A DNA stretch of 64,000 bases from positions 1 to 64,000 of the forward strand of contig NZ_JAQYWQ010000010.1 of assembly GCF_029379315.1 (NCBI RefSeq), written 5' to 3'. The translations under genes were made by a program, and so were the position numbers. Below are positions 44,687 to 49,970 of this stretch, in pieces. Positions within the stretch are counted from its first letter, which is position 1, and each line of letters opens with the position of its first letter. The notes under the pieces were generated by a model. It saw nothing but the letters and a program-made list of their open reading frames with translations. It was not told the origin of the DNA and made no database searches. The stretch is from Nostoc sp. S13 (GTDB taxonomy: Bacteria > Cyanobacteriota > Cyanobacteriia > Cyanobacteriales > Nostocaceae).

Positions 44687-45733
44687 TCAGCGAATTTTGA
44701 CAAACCCAGCTTGGGTAATCAGTTCCTGTCCCTGCTCAGTCAACAGTAAGTTGGCGTAAGCGACACCTGCTTGCTGCTCAGTCTGCCCATTCTGTTTGAC
44801 CACCACAAACAGATTACGGGTAATCGGGTATTTTCCTGATTGGAAAGCCTCAATGTTCAATTTGTTTCGTTTACCAGGACATTCAGACGGGAGGACAGAA
44901 GGTTCTTGGTAGGGAGCAATATATGTCCCTTGCGTTCGCCCCAACGGCAAGGCTTTGATTGAGCATTGAGGAATCACCTCTGGGGCAGAAGCGTAATAGA
45001 TACTACCAAGACTACCAGCCAATTTTTGCAAAGCTTGGGTGGTTGTGGAGATAAATTCCACATTTGAGCTGAAAGCTTGACCACCCAAAATCTCTTGGAC
45101 AAAAAGTTCGACTGTACCGCCGTCAGCAATGCGGCGAGAATAGGGCTTAATTGGGATATTGGGGCCGCCCACCTGGCTCCAATTATTAATTTTGCCTGTG
45201 TAAATTGACTTTAACTGGTCTATCGTTAGTCCTGGGATGTTGAGACTGGGGTTAACTGCGACTGCCAAACCATCAATTGCTACAGGAATTTGTTTCAAAC
45301 TGAACCCACGCTGCTGGGCACGGCTTAACTCCGGATCTAGAACTGGTCGAGAAGACTGAGCAAAAGCTAATTGACCGTCTATCAGCGACTGGATACCAGT
45401 ACCAGAACCAGGAGATGCATTGCTGGGTTCTACATAACGCAGCCGTAACTCTGGTCGCGCCGCTTGAATTGCTGGATCAACTACTAGTCGAATTGGCGCC
45501 CAAGATGTACTGCCTCCATAATTGAATAATCCTGTAGGAACATCCTTTACTGAAGTGAAAGTCCTACCACTAGCTTGTTCTGATCCGGTTTGAGGCGTTT
45601 TGCTGCTACCAGAATTAATTGTATTTAGCTCAAGACCAGACTTTCTGCTGAACCACCAAAAACCGCCAGCTATTAGCCCAAGCGTGATTAGGATGGATAA
45701 GACAAGAATAGGTATTTCATTTTTTTGGGACAT
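44687..45733 (-). CDS. Membrane-anchored PstS-like binding protein (paralogue 1)
   Basis: 348 residues. The N-terminus MSQKNEIPILVLSILITLG is a membrane anchor (about 8-28). A Ser/Thr-rich linker and a phosphate-binding-protein-like two-lobe domain follow, with FNYGGSTSWAPIR, GSGTGIQSLIDGQLAFAQSS, VAIDGLAVAVNPSLNIPGL and YTGKINNWSQVGGP. These are the PstS-type ligand-loop regions. About 60 percent of positions appear shared with 47500-48543 by eye. The protein stays attached rather than being released. It is the last gene of the kinase/binding-protein run. Confidence 0.8.
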   Translation of the reverse strand: MSQKNEIPILVLSILITLGLIAGGFWWFSRKSGLELNTINSGSSKTPQTGSEQASGRTFTSVKDVPTGLFNYGGSTSWAPIRLVVDPAIQAARPELRLRYVEPSNASPGSGTGIQSLIDGQLAFAQSSRPVLDPELSRAQQRGFSLKQIPVAIDGLAVAVNPSLNIPGLTIDQLKSIYTGKINNWSQVGGPNIPIKPYSRRIADGGTVELFVQEILGGQAFSSNVEFISTTTQALQKLAGSLGSIYYASAPEVIPQCSIKALPLGRTQGTYIAPYQEPSVLPSECPGKRNKLNIEAFQSGKYPITRNLFVVVKQNGQTEQQAGVAYANLLLTEQGQELITQAGFVKIR

Positions 45734-46036
45734 AGTAAATTACCGACGCATCCATTCAATATAAGTGCTTAACTTGACAAGTGCTTGCTACTTGAGATTG
45801 TATTTGGAGACGGGTGTTTTATTTACGAATCCCTGACAAATCCTCACTTGTGACTACTTTTGAAACCAAGGGATAACAAATTTCCCCTGGATTATTCGTT
45901 TCTTCTCTCAAGGCTTGATTGCTGGTGAGGATAAGTTGCTAGTTGACACTAAGATTTTTCCCCATAAAGCTCAATTTCCCATGTTGAGAGTTTTTCCAGG
46001 TTAACTATTGGTTAATTTTTAATTTTTAATTGGTGA
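45734..46036. other. Internal gap of the kinase/binding-protein run
   Basis: 303 bases without a gene, wider than other spacings in the run, so paralogue 1 may have its own promoter. No hairpin of note. Confidence 0.4.
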
Positions 46037-47434
46037 TTATCGCACTGGTTCAAAGTCATAACCAGTGCGGGAGCGAGAACCAGGAACGATTTTCACAAGT
46101 TGGACTGGCGCATTGCGATCGCCTGATGCTAAAAATCGAATTGTACCAGAAGCACCGATGGCAGAAAAGTCAGAGGAGGCTAATGCTTCTTGGACTCCCA
46201 ATCGTGTGGGATTGCGTTTTAATGCCTCAATCAAGGCGACAGTAGCATCATAGCTGAGGGCGCTTCGCCAACTCACGTCACCGCCCCATAACTGCCGAGA
46301 TTTCTGGGGAAAATCGGACTTGGGATCGCTATCAATATGCCAGGGAACTGCCAATACCATCCCCACAGCTTGTTCTCTGCCAATTTCTAAAGTTTTAGCG
46401 GTGTAAACATCATCTCCCGCCAGCAGAATTAACTTTTTCTGGTTAATCTGAATTACTTGCAGCGCTTTATCCAGAGTTTCAGTGTTAGCAGCTAACATCA
46501 ACACTTCTGCACCTTGCTTAGTTGCTTGTTCTAGGCTTTTAGCGGCACTAAAATCCACCTTGGATAAGTCAAATTCGCTCGATACCTGTCCACCTTCTAG
46601 GGAAACAGATGAAACAAACTCAGACTTTAAAGACTGGCTATAGTTACTCTGAGAATTAAAGAAAACTGCTGCATTTTTTTTCTGCAAGGTTTTCGCCATG
46701 TAGTTGGCTAAACTTCTAGCAGCCATAAAATCACTAGGAACCGTGCGAAAAACGTAGCGGCTAAAGTTAGAAATCTTTACAGATGTGCTGGTAGGAGATA
46801 CGGCTACAAGTTGTCCAGAAGTATAAATAGTACCTGCGGCTAAAGTGGAATCGCTAGTATTGGGCCCAACTACACCTAATACTTCTGGATTGCTGACTAG
46901 GCTGGAAGCGATTTGCTTGGCTATTTCTGGATTGTCGTCGTCATTAGCTATCCCTACCTTCAACGGCACTCCCTTGACTCCTCCAGAGCTATTAACTTGA
47001 TTTTGGGCTTGGGCGATGCCACGTAAAATTTCTAAAGCAGCATTGGGGTCAGTGCCTATTGGTACAGAAGCTACAATGGTGTAGCTTTTGGAACCGATAC
47101 GAGCATTGTTAAGAAAGATTAATGCTTCTGGATCGTTTCGGTTGAGTTTTAGAGCAGCTGTGAAATTAGCGATCGCTTGATCATAACTTTTCGCAGCGAT
47201 CGCCTGTACTCCTTCTTTTTTGGCGGGAGAAATCTCACCTGAAGTCAAAGTTTTTTCCCCAAAACTAATCCTGTCTTTAAGAGATGAATTACTGCCTGTT
47301 TGCTGATTTGGAATAATGTTATTACTAATTTTGACCCCAGAGCGATTAGTAAACCACCAAAAACCACCACCAACTATTCCAACTGTCAGCAACAAGGCCA
47401 AGGCTAAAACTGTGGTTTCATTCTTTTGTGACAT
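46037..47434 (-). CDS. Membrane-anchored Leu/Ile/Val-type binding protein with TPR unit
   Basis: 465 residues from ATG 47434 (MSQKNETTVLALALLLTVG). The N-terminal anchor (about 8-28) closely resembles that of both PstS-like neighbours. Next is a short TPR-like unit (EGVQAIAAKSYDQAIANFTA, LKLNRNDPEALIFLNN), then a Peripla_BP_6 receptor domain (about 105-465; PLKVGIANDDDNPEIAKQIA, VLGVVGPNTSDSTLAAGTIY, and ILLAGDDVYTAKTLEIG). That domain is the fold of amino-acid and amide binding proteins. No permease genes are near, so sensing rather than transport is likely. Confidence 0.82.
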   Translation of the reverse strand: MSQKNETTVLALALLLTVGIVGGGFWWFTNRSGVKISNNIIPNQQTGSNSSLKDRISFGEKTLTSGEISPAKKEGVQAIAAKSYDQAIANFTAALKLNRNDPEALIFLNNARIGSKSYTIVASVPIGTDPNAALEILRGIAQAQNQVNSSGGVKGVPLKVGIANDDDNPEIAKQIASSLVSNPEVLGVVGPNTSDSTLAAGTIYTSGQLVAVSPTSTSVKISNFSRYVFRTVPSDFMAARSLANYMAKTLQKKNAAVFFNSQSNYSQSLKSEFVSSVSLEGGQVSSEFDLSKVDFSAAKSLEQATKQGAEVLMLAANTETLDKALQVIQINQKKLILLAGDDVYTAKTLEIGREQAVGMVLAVPWHIDSDPKSDFPQKSRQLWGGDVSWRSALSYDATVALIEALKRNPTRLGVQEALASSDFSAIGASGTIRFLASGDRNAPVQLVKIVPGSRSRTGYDFEPVR

Positions 47435-47499
47435 GAACAATTTTTAATAAAGTAAAAATGTTTATTATTTGATTATTTTGCTAAATCTAACCGCTTTGA

Positions 47500-48543
47500 T
47501 CATTTAATTCTGACAAATCCAGCCTTTTCGATCAGTTCTTGACCTTGAGGTGTCAGCAGCCAATTTGCATAAGCTTCCCCAGCTTGCTGATCTGTTTGAC
47601 CATTCTGTTTAACGATTACAAATAAATTGCGGGTAATTGCATAGTCCCCACTACGAAACGCCTGAGTATTCAACTGATTACGCTTAGTGGGGCATTCAGA
47701 TGGAGGTACAAAGGGTTCTTGGTAGGGAGGCACAAATTGACCGCTTGTGCGCCCTAGTGGTAGGGATTTAATCGTACATTGGGGTACAATCTCTGGAGCA
47801 GAAGCATAGTAAATTCCGCCAGGACTTGCAGCTACTTTTTGTACTGCTTCAGTGGTTGTGCCAATATAAGTAACATTGGCCCCAAAATTCTCTTTATTTA
47901 GAACATTTTCGAGAAAGAATTCCACTGTACCCCCAGCTTCTTTGCTCCGAGAGTAGACTGTAATTGGTAAATTTGGCCCACCCACCTGTTGCCAATTAGT
48001 AATTTTACCTGTGTAGATATCTTTGAGTTGGGCGACAGTTAAACCAGGGATGTTGAGATTGAGGTTAACTGCGATCGCAATACCATCAATCGCCACCGGA
48101 ATTTCTTTCAAACTAAATTCTTTTTGTTTAGCTTCTGTATTTTCTTCGGCTTTAACTGAGCGAGAAGATTGAGAAAAAACTAGTTGATTATCTATCAACA
48201 TCCGAATACCAGTTCCAGATCCTGCTTGACCTAATGAAGGTTGAGTGTAGCGTAAAATAAACCGAGGGCAGAGGTTTTCTAGTACGGAGTCTACCTCTTT
48301 ACGGATGGGTGCCCAGGTTGTACTACCACCATAGTTGAATGTCCCCTCTGGGAGGTTTGACACGTTACATTTGTTGACAAACTGGTTTAGGGGATTACCT
48401 GTGTTGCCAGTTTCCGAAGGTTTAGTAACAGTTCCACTTAATTGCGCCCACCTTTCCATAAAAAACCATAGACCACCAAAAATTAAACCAATGGTGATGA
48501 CGACGGCTAAGAAAAGGCTAAGTGTTTCGTTTTTCTGAGACAT
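47500..48543 (-). CDS. Membrane-anchored PstS-like binding protein (paralogue 2)
   Basis: 347 residues, a close paralogue of 44687-45733. MSQKNETLSLFLAVVITIG is the anchor, then TFNYGGSTTWAPIRKEVDSV, GSGTGIRMLIDNQLVFSQSS, VAIDGIAIAVNLNLNIPGL and TGKITNWQQVGGPNLPI. The ligand region keeps the GSGTG and SQSSR elements. It begins 26 bases after the kinase gene's stop, so it is very probably co-transcribed and perhaps translationally linked to the kinase. Confidence 0.82.
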   Translation of the reverse strand: MSQKNETLSLFLAVVITIGLIFGGLWFFMERWAQLSGTVTKPSETGNTGNPLNQFVNKCNVSNLPEGTFNYGGSTTWAPIRKEVDSVLENLCPRFILRYTQPSLGQAGSGTGIRMLIDNQLVFSQSSRSVKAEENTEAKQKEFSLKEIPVAIDGIAIAVNLNLNIPGLTVAQLKDIYTGKITNWQQVGGPNLPITVYSRSKEAGGTVEFFLENVLNKENFGANVTYIGTTTEAVQKVAASPGGIYYASAPEIVPQCTIKSLPLGRTSGQFVPPYQEPFVPPSECPTKRNQLNTQAFRSGDYAITRNLFVIVKQNGQTDQQAGEAYANWLLTPQGQELIEKAGFVRIK

Positions 48544-48569
48544 AAGTGGCTGTTAGCAGCAGGAGTTTT

Positions 48570-49970
48570 TTAAAGTAAGATAGATAATAATTTATAAATA
48601 AGTCGAAATACGGCTGTTAATGAAATGGCTACTAAGGCTGCTGCAACTGCTAAAATAACTACCTCCTGAATGCCAAGAACCCCCCGTAAAAAGGGGAGAA
48701 AAAAAATAATTGCAAAACTAATTGTCGGAATAATTAATAAATCGAACTTTTCAATCCACCGCCTGGTTTGGGCAAATATCAGTATCCCCAAAATCACACA
48801 TGCAACAGTGAAAGTAGGTATTAGTGATTTTACTAGACTGAAGAGAGCGATCACTATTAATGCACCCTCAAATCCACTAAATGCCGCTCCAGCTAATAAT
48901 TCCACTGTAGAAAACGCTGGTTGAGTTGGTGAACGGCGGGGGACGACGGGACTAGAACCTTTGGGTGGTTGTGGCGGAAGTGTTAGAGAAGGCGAATTAA
49001 GTTGTGTAGGGGCTTGAGCCTGTGAGTTAAGTGCATGTAGAACCTCCTGGGCTGATTGGAAGCGCTGATTAGCAGCAGGTAGCAACATCTTGTCTAAAAT
49101 GTCAGCAAGGCGAGGGTTGATATTCACTTGCGATCGCCATTTCCACTGGTTGCTATAGGCATCAAATAGTTGAACTGCTTCCTGATTTGTCAACAAAGTA
49201 ATAAGAGTTACAGCCAACGCGTATAAGTCTGTAGATGGGAATACTTGACCGCCAGCCATCTGCTCAGGTGGTGCAAATCCCATAGAATAAATTCCTGTGG
49301 AAGATACAGCAGAACCAAGTGCAGCGTTTGTTACTTGCTTAACTGCGCCAAAGTCTAGTAAAAAGAGTTTACCATCACGACGGCGCATGATGTTAGAAGG
49401 TTTGATATCTCTGTGGATAATGCCTCTGTCATGGACAAACTCTAGTACCTTGAGGATTTCTTGCAGCACCTCCAACACTTGCTGTTCAGAGAATTTGCCA
49501 TTTTGAACTAATTCTTCCTCTAAGTTTTGCCCATTAATGTATTCTTGTGCCAAGTAAAAAAATTGGTCTTGCTGTCCTGGTTGCAAGCTATTAACTATCA
49601 CTGGAAAGAAGGCAAACAAGTCAGGAATTTGCTCATGATCGTTACCAAGTTGTGCTAAAACTTCTGCCTCTCTCTCAAACATCACCTGTGCTTGTTGCAA
49701 TTGAGTTGAGCTTAAATTTCCTGCTGGTTGAAACTGCTTAACTACGCATTGACGCATTCCTGGTATTCGGCGATCGCGTGCCAAAAAGGCAGCTCCAAAC
49801 CCACCCCTTCCTAGCAGCTTCGTTGTCACGTATCGGCCATCTAGCATCAGTGGCATACCACAGGTAGTACAATACTTTTGCTGCATTGTTTTCAGCGTCG
49901 TAATATCATCTAAATCGCCGAAATAGTTTTGTGGGCGTGGACAACGTGGACGAGTGCAGTAAACTTCCAT
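48570..49970 (-). CDS. Ser/Thr protein kinase with zinc ribbon and C-terminal membrane domain
   Basis: 466 residues. The N-terminal zinc-ribbon-like part has Cys5, Cys10, Cys34 and Cys37 (YCTTCG). The kinase domain (about 45-310) has a Gly-rich loop LGRGGFGAAFLA, the Lys in CVVKQFQP, the catalytic loop HRDIKPSNIM, DFG in LLDFGAVKQV and the APE-like APPEQ. All key residues are present. A Pro-rich linker follows and about four membrane helices (about 355-466). This is the cyanobacterial Hanks-kinase type. As first gene before three anchored binding proteins it is the likely signal output of a surface sensor (inference). Confidence 0.9.
   Translation of the reverse strand: MEVYCTRPRCPRPQNYFGDLDDITTLKTMQQKYCTTCGMPLMLDGRYVTTKLLGRGGFGAAFLARDRRIPGMRQCVVKQFQPAGNLSSTQLQQAQVMFEREAEVLAQLGNDHEQIPDLFAFFPVIVNSLQPGQQDQFFYLAQEYINGQNLEEELVQNGKFSEQQVLEVLQEILKVLEFVHDRGIIHRDIKPSNIMRRRDGKLFLLDFGAVKQVTNAALGSAVSSTGIYSMGFAPPEQMAGGQVFPSTDLYALAVTLITLLTNQEAVQLFDAYSNQWKWRSQVNINPRLADILDKMLLPAANQRFQSAQEVLHALNSQAQAPTQLNSPSLTLPPQPPKGSSPVVPRRSPTQPAFSTVELLAGAAFSGFEGALIVIALFSLVKSLIPTFTVACVILGILIFAQTRRWIEKFDLLIIPTISFAIIFFLPFLRGVLGIQEVVILAVAAALVAISLTAVFRLIYKLLSILL

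Follow-up and report, generated by a model that had tools for sequence, protein, structure and literature searches.

Why should three binding proteins of two unrelated folds, encoded immediately behind a serine/threonine (Ser/Thr) kinase, begin with one and the same membrane anchor? The question is raised by four genes on the minus strand of a 64,000-nucleotide stretch of Nostoc sp. S13 (contig NZ_JAQYWQ010000010.1, positions 1 to 64,000; hereafter the window), in the order kinase, PstS-like, LivJ-like, PstS-like. A first-pass annotation, made from the sequence alone, had described this order and its coordinates, both of which were confirmed, with Pfam and NCBIfam in agreement, and had raised the idea that anchored receptors control the kinase. 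The answer that we consider probable is that the four genes constitute a split version, with several receptors, of the receptor kinases already known as single chains, in which the receptor anchors would dock on a four-helix module of the kinase. The elements of the cluster are as follows (aa, amino acids; 4-Cys, four-cysteine).

48570..49970, minus strand: Hanks-type Ser/Thr kinase, 466 aa, consisting of a 4-Cys prefix, kinase domain, linker and four-helix membrane module
49848..49970, minus strand: 4-Cys prefix, kinase residues 1-41 (NF045510)
48573..48914, minus strand: four-helix membrane module, kinase residues 353-466, with short loops only; proposed docking site
47500..48543, minus strand: anchored PstS-fold receptor A, 347 aa (PBP_like_2)
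48460..48543, minus strand: anchor of receptor A, residues 1-28
46037..47434, minus strand: anchored LivJ-type receptor, 465 aa from the ATG (Peripla_BP_6)
47351..47434, minus strand: anchor of the LivJ-type receptor, residues 1-28
44687..45733, minus strand: anchored PstS-fold receptor B, 348 aa (PBP_like_2)
45650..45733, minus strand: anchor of receptor B, residues 1-28

Stop codons separate the kinase from the receptors, and the receptors from one another, such that these are distinct genes and not one polypeptide; the intergenic gaps are, in order, 26, 65 and 303 base pairs (bp). The LivJ-like open reading frame (ORF) as listed begins two codons before the ATG, at a TTG. Within the kinase, the Pkinase domain is complete (120.8 bits, Pfam), and the N-terminal element previously labelled a zinc ribbon is instead the NF045510 4-Cys prefix (NCBIfam score 45 bits, threshold 24), with a mean pairwise identity of 0.82. 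The catalytic K, HRD and DFG residues are intact and, together with the four cysteines, invariant in all 77 aligned kinases. At the C-terminus lie four predicted membrane helices (structure model with a predicted local distance difference test score, pLDDT, of 86.8), for which no Pfam match over the cut-off was found. This module is far better conserved than the variable linker that precedes it, the mean identities being 0.67 and 0.38, respectively.

Each receptor is composed of an MSQKNE start, one helix, a polar linker and a receptor domain, and, as first noted, the receptor domains belong to two unrelated folds: PBP_like_2 twice (92.6 bits for receptor B) and Peripla_BP_6 once (116.8 bits). 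Receptors A and B are approximately 60% identical to each other. In all three types the anchor and the receptor domain are conserved and the linker between them less so, with mean identities for anchor, linker and body of 0.66, 0.35 and 0.75 for receptor A, 0.86, 0.53 and 0.87 for receptor B, and 0.73, 0.60 and 0.80 for the LivJ type. The PstS-like proteins have a receptor domain of PstS fold, and the structure model of this type matches phosphate-binding proteins; their scores against the PstS family TIGR02136 (154.0 and 144.4 bits) lie under its curated cut-off of 206.6. In alignments to phosphate-binding structures, the GSGT-type loop, which we take to be the loop that holds phosphate, reads AGGT with one extra residue ahead. 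Given these scores and this loop, the ligand may be phosphate or something else. For the LivJ type, relatives of solved structure are, by name, leucine- and other amino-acid-binding proteins, and its ligand is presumed to be amino-acid-like; a short stretch ahead of its receptor domain is conserved in fused relatives as well. The kinase carries no sensor domain on the outside, and the receptors carry no output domain on the inside.

The shared anchor and the pairing of kinase and receptors

That all three window receptors begin with MSQKNE and a similar hydrophobic anchor held up on inspection, each possessing a single helix. A degenerate DNA pattern for MSQKNE has three matches in the 7.2-megabase (Mb) assembly, all of them at the cluster, while the backwards control has none; the codons for the common Ser, Gln, Lys and Asn differ among the three genes. 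Because the first 36 residues of the three window receptors contain no cysteine, a lipobox is absent from them.

Relatives were gathered by scanning named genomes with the PstS-type alignment, which yielded 272 pattern matches, 260 of which are relatives; the best 80 of these were kept and fall into 79 loci, including those of Nostoc, Anabaena, Dolichospermum, Scytonema, Fischerella, Trichocoleus and Gloeocapsopsis. The anchor, with the consensus MSQKNET..L.LALLIT.GL.GGG.WWF, could be excised from 163 of the 175 receptor ORFs in these loci; 123 of the 163 begin exactly with MSQKNE, 152 fit a looser form, and K4, E6, T17, G19, G24 and W26 are each present in at least 86% of both folds. Fragments are among the 12 receptor ORFs without an excisable anchor, as are five LivJ-type genes from the Dolichospermum/Anabaena group, which have a different N-terminus and some of whose ORFs begin with ILPAIIIQ repeats. 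A profile built from PstS-type anchors only assigns a median of 51.9 bits to 84 LivJ-type N-termini, the lowest of which (5th percentile, -17) are fragments or anchorless forms, as compared with -0.9 bits for shuffled sequences and -1.2 bits, with a maximum of 7.0, for 397 further N-termini that contain a hydrophobic segment. The receptor anchors are thus far more alike, across both folds, than other membrane N-termini.

Two simple origins of this likeness were set aside. The alignment of the anchors against the kinase membrane helices, to which the first-pass annotation had looked, returned no sequence similarity (best E 0.097 over 76 kinases), and the notion of an anchor copied out of the kinase was therefore dropped. 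Recent gene conversion is not favoured either, as the shared residues use different codons (mean 63%, minimum 35%).

The gene order is likewise not peculiar to this strain. A kinase stands upstream on the same strand in 76 of the 79 related loci, and in the remaining three (L086, L091 and L092) the contig ends upstream, in L086 only after 2.5 kilobases (kb). The arrangements include that of the window (19 loci), kinase-PstS-PstS (16), kinase-PstS (12) and kinase-PstS-LivJ (10), some of the loci being cut by contig ends. These variable orders indicate that the receptor set varies around a constant kinase, and the gap between kinase and first receptor is often 20-33 bp.

A similar picture emerges across the class. 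The profile of the kinase membrane module has a match in 187 of 388 genomes drawn from it, and among 80 module loci, chosen at about one or two per genus, a receptor lies downstream in 53, frequently at gaps below about 30 bp; 52 of these 53 receptors have the anchor by profile. The number 53 is a lower bound, since the ORF scan overlooked at least one adjacency (in G053). Among the matches listed, the module is present in 96 of the 98 genomes with a LivJ-type match that starts at or before query residue 5, as opposed to 91 of the other 290, and it is present in 61 of the 64 genomes carrying a looser MSQKNE DNA pattern. Proximity is not invariable: in 19 of 20 regions fetched around anchored LivJ-type genes no such kinase occurs within the region, and those receptors therefore stand apart from it. 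A PstS-type profile search of 26 chosen genomes, 24 of them with the module, gave 13 genomes with high-scoring matches that start at the anchor and seven with divergent but recognisable ones. In the genome G005, a 4-Cys kinase has the gene of an anchored LivJ-type receptor no more than about 70 bp behind it; the end of this kinase looks by eye like four hydrophobic helices and is absent from the matches of the module profile.

Single-chain relatives and the case for docking

Independent support for the idea that anchored receptors control the kinase comes from proteins in which the two functions are joined. Single-chain kinase-receptor proteins were reported in 2005, including a 'Kinase + ANF Receptor' architecture in Nostoc 7120 (PMC1262709). 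From the class-wide matches listed, 20 long LivJ-type ORFs were chosen, 18 of which are kinase-helix-receptor single chains, the other two being other long proteins. The LivJ-type receptor domains of the 18 fusions are 44-58% identical to that of the window, and in three of the fusions the kinase is of the 4-Cys kind, with 52-56% identity to that of the window. Pfam identifies the kinase and Peripla_BP_6 domains, and no PstS-type domain, in the three fusions scanned, and NCBI names one relative (P0248) a bifunctional serine/threonine-protein kinase/ABC transporter substrate-binding protein (ABC, ATP-binding cassette).

The fusions thus resemble the window's proteins in combining a Hanks-type kinase with a LivJ-type receptor, and in 3 of 18 cases the 4-Cys prefix. 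They differ in that a single chain, with one helix, holds the kinase and one receptor, whereas the window has separate genes and several receptors. By hydropathy, 17 of the 18 have a single helix joining kinase to receptor, and the anchor signature is not significant in any of the fusions (lowest E 0.049); conserved anchor and four-helix module thus accompany separate chains. Taken together, a kinase without a sensor, receptors without an output and single-chain relatives with both make docking through a common helix the simplest account of the cluster. In one further genome (G273, locus L198) an in-frame run leads from kinase through four helices and anchor to receptor, but the receptor frame breaks, and the run is weak support.

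The transporter-like folds of the receptors suggest a different explanation, which we regard as unlikely: that they are orphan substrate-binding proteins serving ABC transporters whose genes lie elsewhere, with the kinase regulating uptake or sharing the operon for the sake of co-expression. PstS and LivJ are transporter folds, and the window receptors share them with the binding proteins of such transporters; moreover, PstC permeases are encoded in the window genome at three separate places (C203, C15 and C186). Each of these over-cut-off PstC genes, however, has its own PstS-type gene adjacent to it, and the window's own PstS-family scores remain sub-threshold. Unlike the transporter proteins, the window receptors are helix-anchored, lack an anchor cysteine and are not accompanied by an ABC permease or ATPase: consistent with what had first been noted, a Pfam scan of the 16 neighbouring ORFs (35.0-63.6 kb) found neither, and pstC, pstA and pstB do not lie alongside the receptors. 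Among relatives, an ABC ATPase motif occurs in 3 of 1,096 ORFs in the cluster or within 5 kb (permeases were not sought). Permanent anchoring by a helix, as well as the fusion of LivJ-type domains to kinases, would also ill suit a binding protein that must move freely.

Weighing docking against other roles of the anchor

Were a single ancient source of the anchor the whole explanation, the PstS- and LivJ-type anchors of one genome should be no closer to each other than those of different genomes. In a set of 19 genomes for which both receptor types had happened to be fetched, and which is not a planned sample, anchor identity between the two types is 0.584 within genomes versus 0.468 when permuted, and none of 2,000 permutations reached the within-genome value; this figure was obtained after manual adjustment of the register in three genomes, the corresponding values beforehand being 0.554 and 0.481. 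In a column-shuffled control that keeps composition, the difference is at most 0.030, compared with 0.116 in the real data, and omission of G005 leaves 0.573 versus 0.487. In G005 itself the PstS and LivJ genes are 1.1 Mb apart and their anchors are unlike MSQKNE, yet 25 of 31 residues agree; the codons differ at 11 of 23 comparable shared positions, which disfavours fresh copying. The anchors of the two folds have therefore diverged in concert in this mixed set of genomes.

Several observations weigh against the docking of separate receptors on the kinase. Firstly, the pairing is incomplete: the ORF scan found no downstream receptor in 27 of the 80 module loci, some of which end at a contig edge; two genomes, G098 and G267 (the latter 77% complete), have an anchor-reaching LivJ-type match and no module match; 6 of the 26 chosen genomes have no clearly anchored PstS-type receptor (two without a match, four with none clear); and the five anchorless Dolichospermum/Anabaena genes of LivJ type (L057, L059, L061, L065 and L072) have nonetheless stayed in the cluster. 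Shared ancestry, furthermore, inflates the p-value of the co-occurrence. Secondly, the concerted signal depends in part on divergent lineages, falling upon removal of six divergent genomes to 0.622 within genomes (reached by 6 of 2,000 permutations) versus 0.584, and in 39 mostly Nostocales loci anchor identity is the same within and between loci (0.586 in both). Thirdly, the divergence of the anchor is uncorrelated with that of the module over 45 loci (rho 0.10, partial -0.03). Finally, the helices of the three 4-Cys fusions rank top against the anchor profile at an E of only 0.05-0.22, scores too weak to decide whether the fusion helix descends from the anchor. The first-pass proposal that the anchors dock on the kinase membrane domain agrees with the comparative data, while the similarity between anchor and kinase helices is absent and the test for co-variation of anchor and module is negative.

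These same two results, along with the conservation of the anchor even where receptors lie far from the kinase, would suit an anchor conserved as a sorting or insertion signal, for example for one membrane or membrane zone, with the kinase not its partner. We judge this to be improbable, to about the same degree as the orphan-binding-protein explanation. Among the 2,596 ORFs of the fetched loci (whole genomes were not profile-scanned), the common anchor profile matches at E<0.01 no ORF that lacks similarity to a receptor or kinase, and the MSQKNE pattern has no further match in the window genome. The presence of the receptor anchor, in addition, follows that of the kinase module.

A published parallel is the PknG-GlnX-GlnH system of Actinobacteria, whose operon encodes a Ser/Thr kinase together with a periplasmic binding protein and a membrane transmitter of four helices (PMC6069109, PMC9769921). 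In the proposal made for it, binding protein and transmitter together govern the kinase, direct contacts having still been undemonstrated in 2022 (PMC9769921, PMC6069109). The two systems are alike in uniting a kinase, a binding protein and four helices; PknG also has rubredoxin and TPR domains. They differ in that GlnX is a protein of its own and bears two periplasmic domains, whereas the window's four helices form the kinase C-terminus and have short loops; and GlnH is a lipoprotein and sole receptor, whereas the window has several helix-anchored receptors of two folds with one anchor. That the window receptors signal through another membrane partner, on or downstream of which the kinase acts, much as mycobacterial PknG is proposed to use the separate transmitter GlnX (PMC6069109, PMC9769921), is very unlikely, the four helices here being part of the kinase itself and the 20-33 bp that separate kinase and first receptor in many loci leaving no room there for a third gene. 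Among the open-access titles and abstract openings listed by the literature searches, a scope outside which most subscription papers fall, none dealt with a kinase and anchored receptors encoded separately, with several receptors of two folds on a common anchor.

Under the split receptor kinase that we favour, each receptor would present a ligand-binding domain outside the cell and span the membrane by one helix, and the kinase would hold its 4-Cys and catalytic parts in the cytoplasm. The conserved receptor helix would dock on the four-helix module, and closure of a receptor around its ligand would alter the packing of the helices and thereby activate or silence the kinase; a further input, from the cytoplasm, may come through the 4-Cys prefix. 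With a common docking helix, receptors for different ligands could thus use one kinase. A broader formulation, the case for which we see as evenly balanced, is that of a class-wide modular receptor kinase in which one four-helix kinase serves several interchangeable anchored receptors, of PstS and LivJ type, through a transmembrane docking code that would co-diverge between the folds within a lineage and whose halves would be missing or unrecognisable in the fusions.

If docking holds true, a cell could integrate phosphate-like and amino-acid-like signals from outside on one Ser/Thr kinase, and the cluster would exemplify natural plug-in receptors that act on one kinase via a shared membrane helix, a possible template for engineered sensing. 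Genome logic also names candidate sensors for a widespread cyanobacterial kinase, with few partners to consider. The prediction is that exchange of the anchor helix should abolish signalling, and exchange of the receptor domain should confer a response to a new ligand.

Neighbouring genes and other uses of the LivJ-type module

Two regulator genes flank the cluster: upstream, one of LysR type (window:50340-51398), and downstream, on the opposite strand, one of Crp type (window:43859-44632); a gene sharing the TWQRI motif is found downstream in 21 of the 80 class-wide loci. A LysR gene with a similar start likewise lies upstream in G005. A scan for promoters and terminators gave fewer matches than did shuffled sequences. 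A thioredoxin gene (window:52711-53097) lies near the 4-Cys kinase, and a redox link between the two is only a thought. Elsewhere in the window genome, three more PstS-type matches occur within about 5 kb (G000:C44:25646-30960).

The LivJ-type module is also found outside kinases. In the window genome it is fused to a caspase domain in an 832-aa protein (L013:1492-3990, C61) and to an AAA-like domain in two others (L014:76-2826, C52, and L015:197-2493, C59); at L015, a long ORF resembling a TIR-type plus ATPase protein overlaps an ORF of LivJ type in a different reading frame, as though one gene had been split. By the caspase fusion, candidate cell-death proteins also have the module. Three proteins of more than 1,200 aa (P0250, P0257 and P0258) combine the module with a CHAT domain (PF12770, precomputed), and two very long ORFs, of 3,057 and 1,895 aa (L222:608-9781 and L223:416-6103), carry it at their end.

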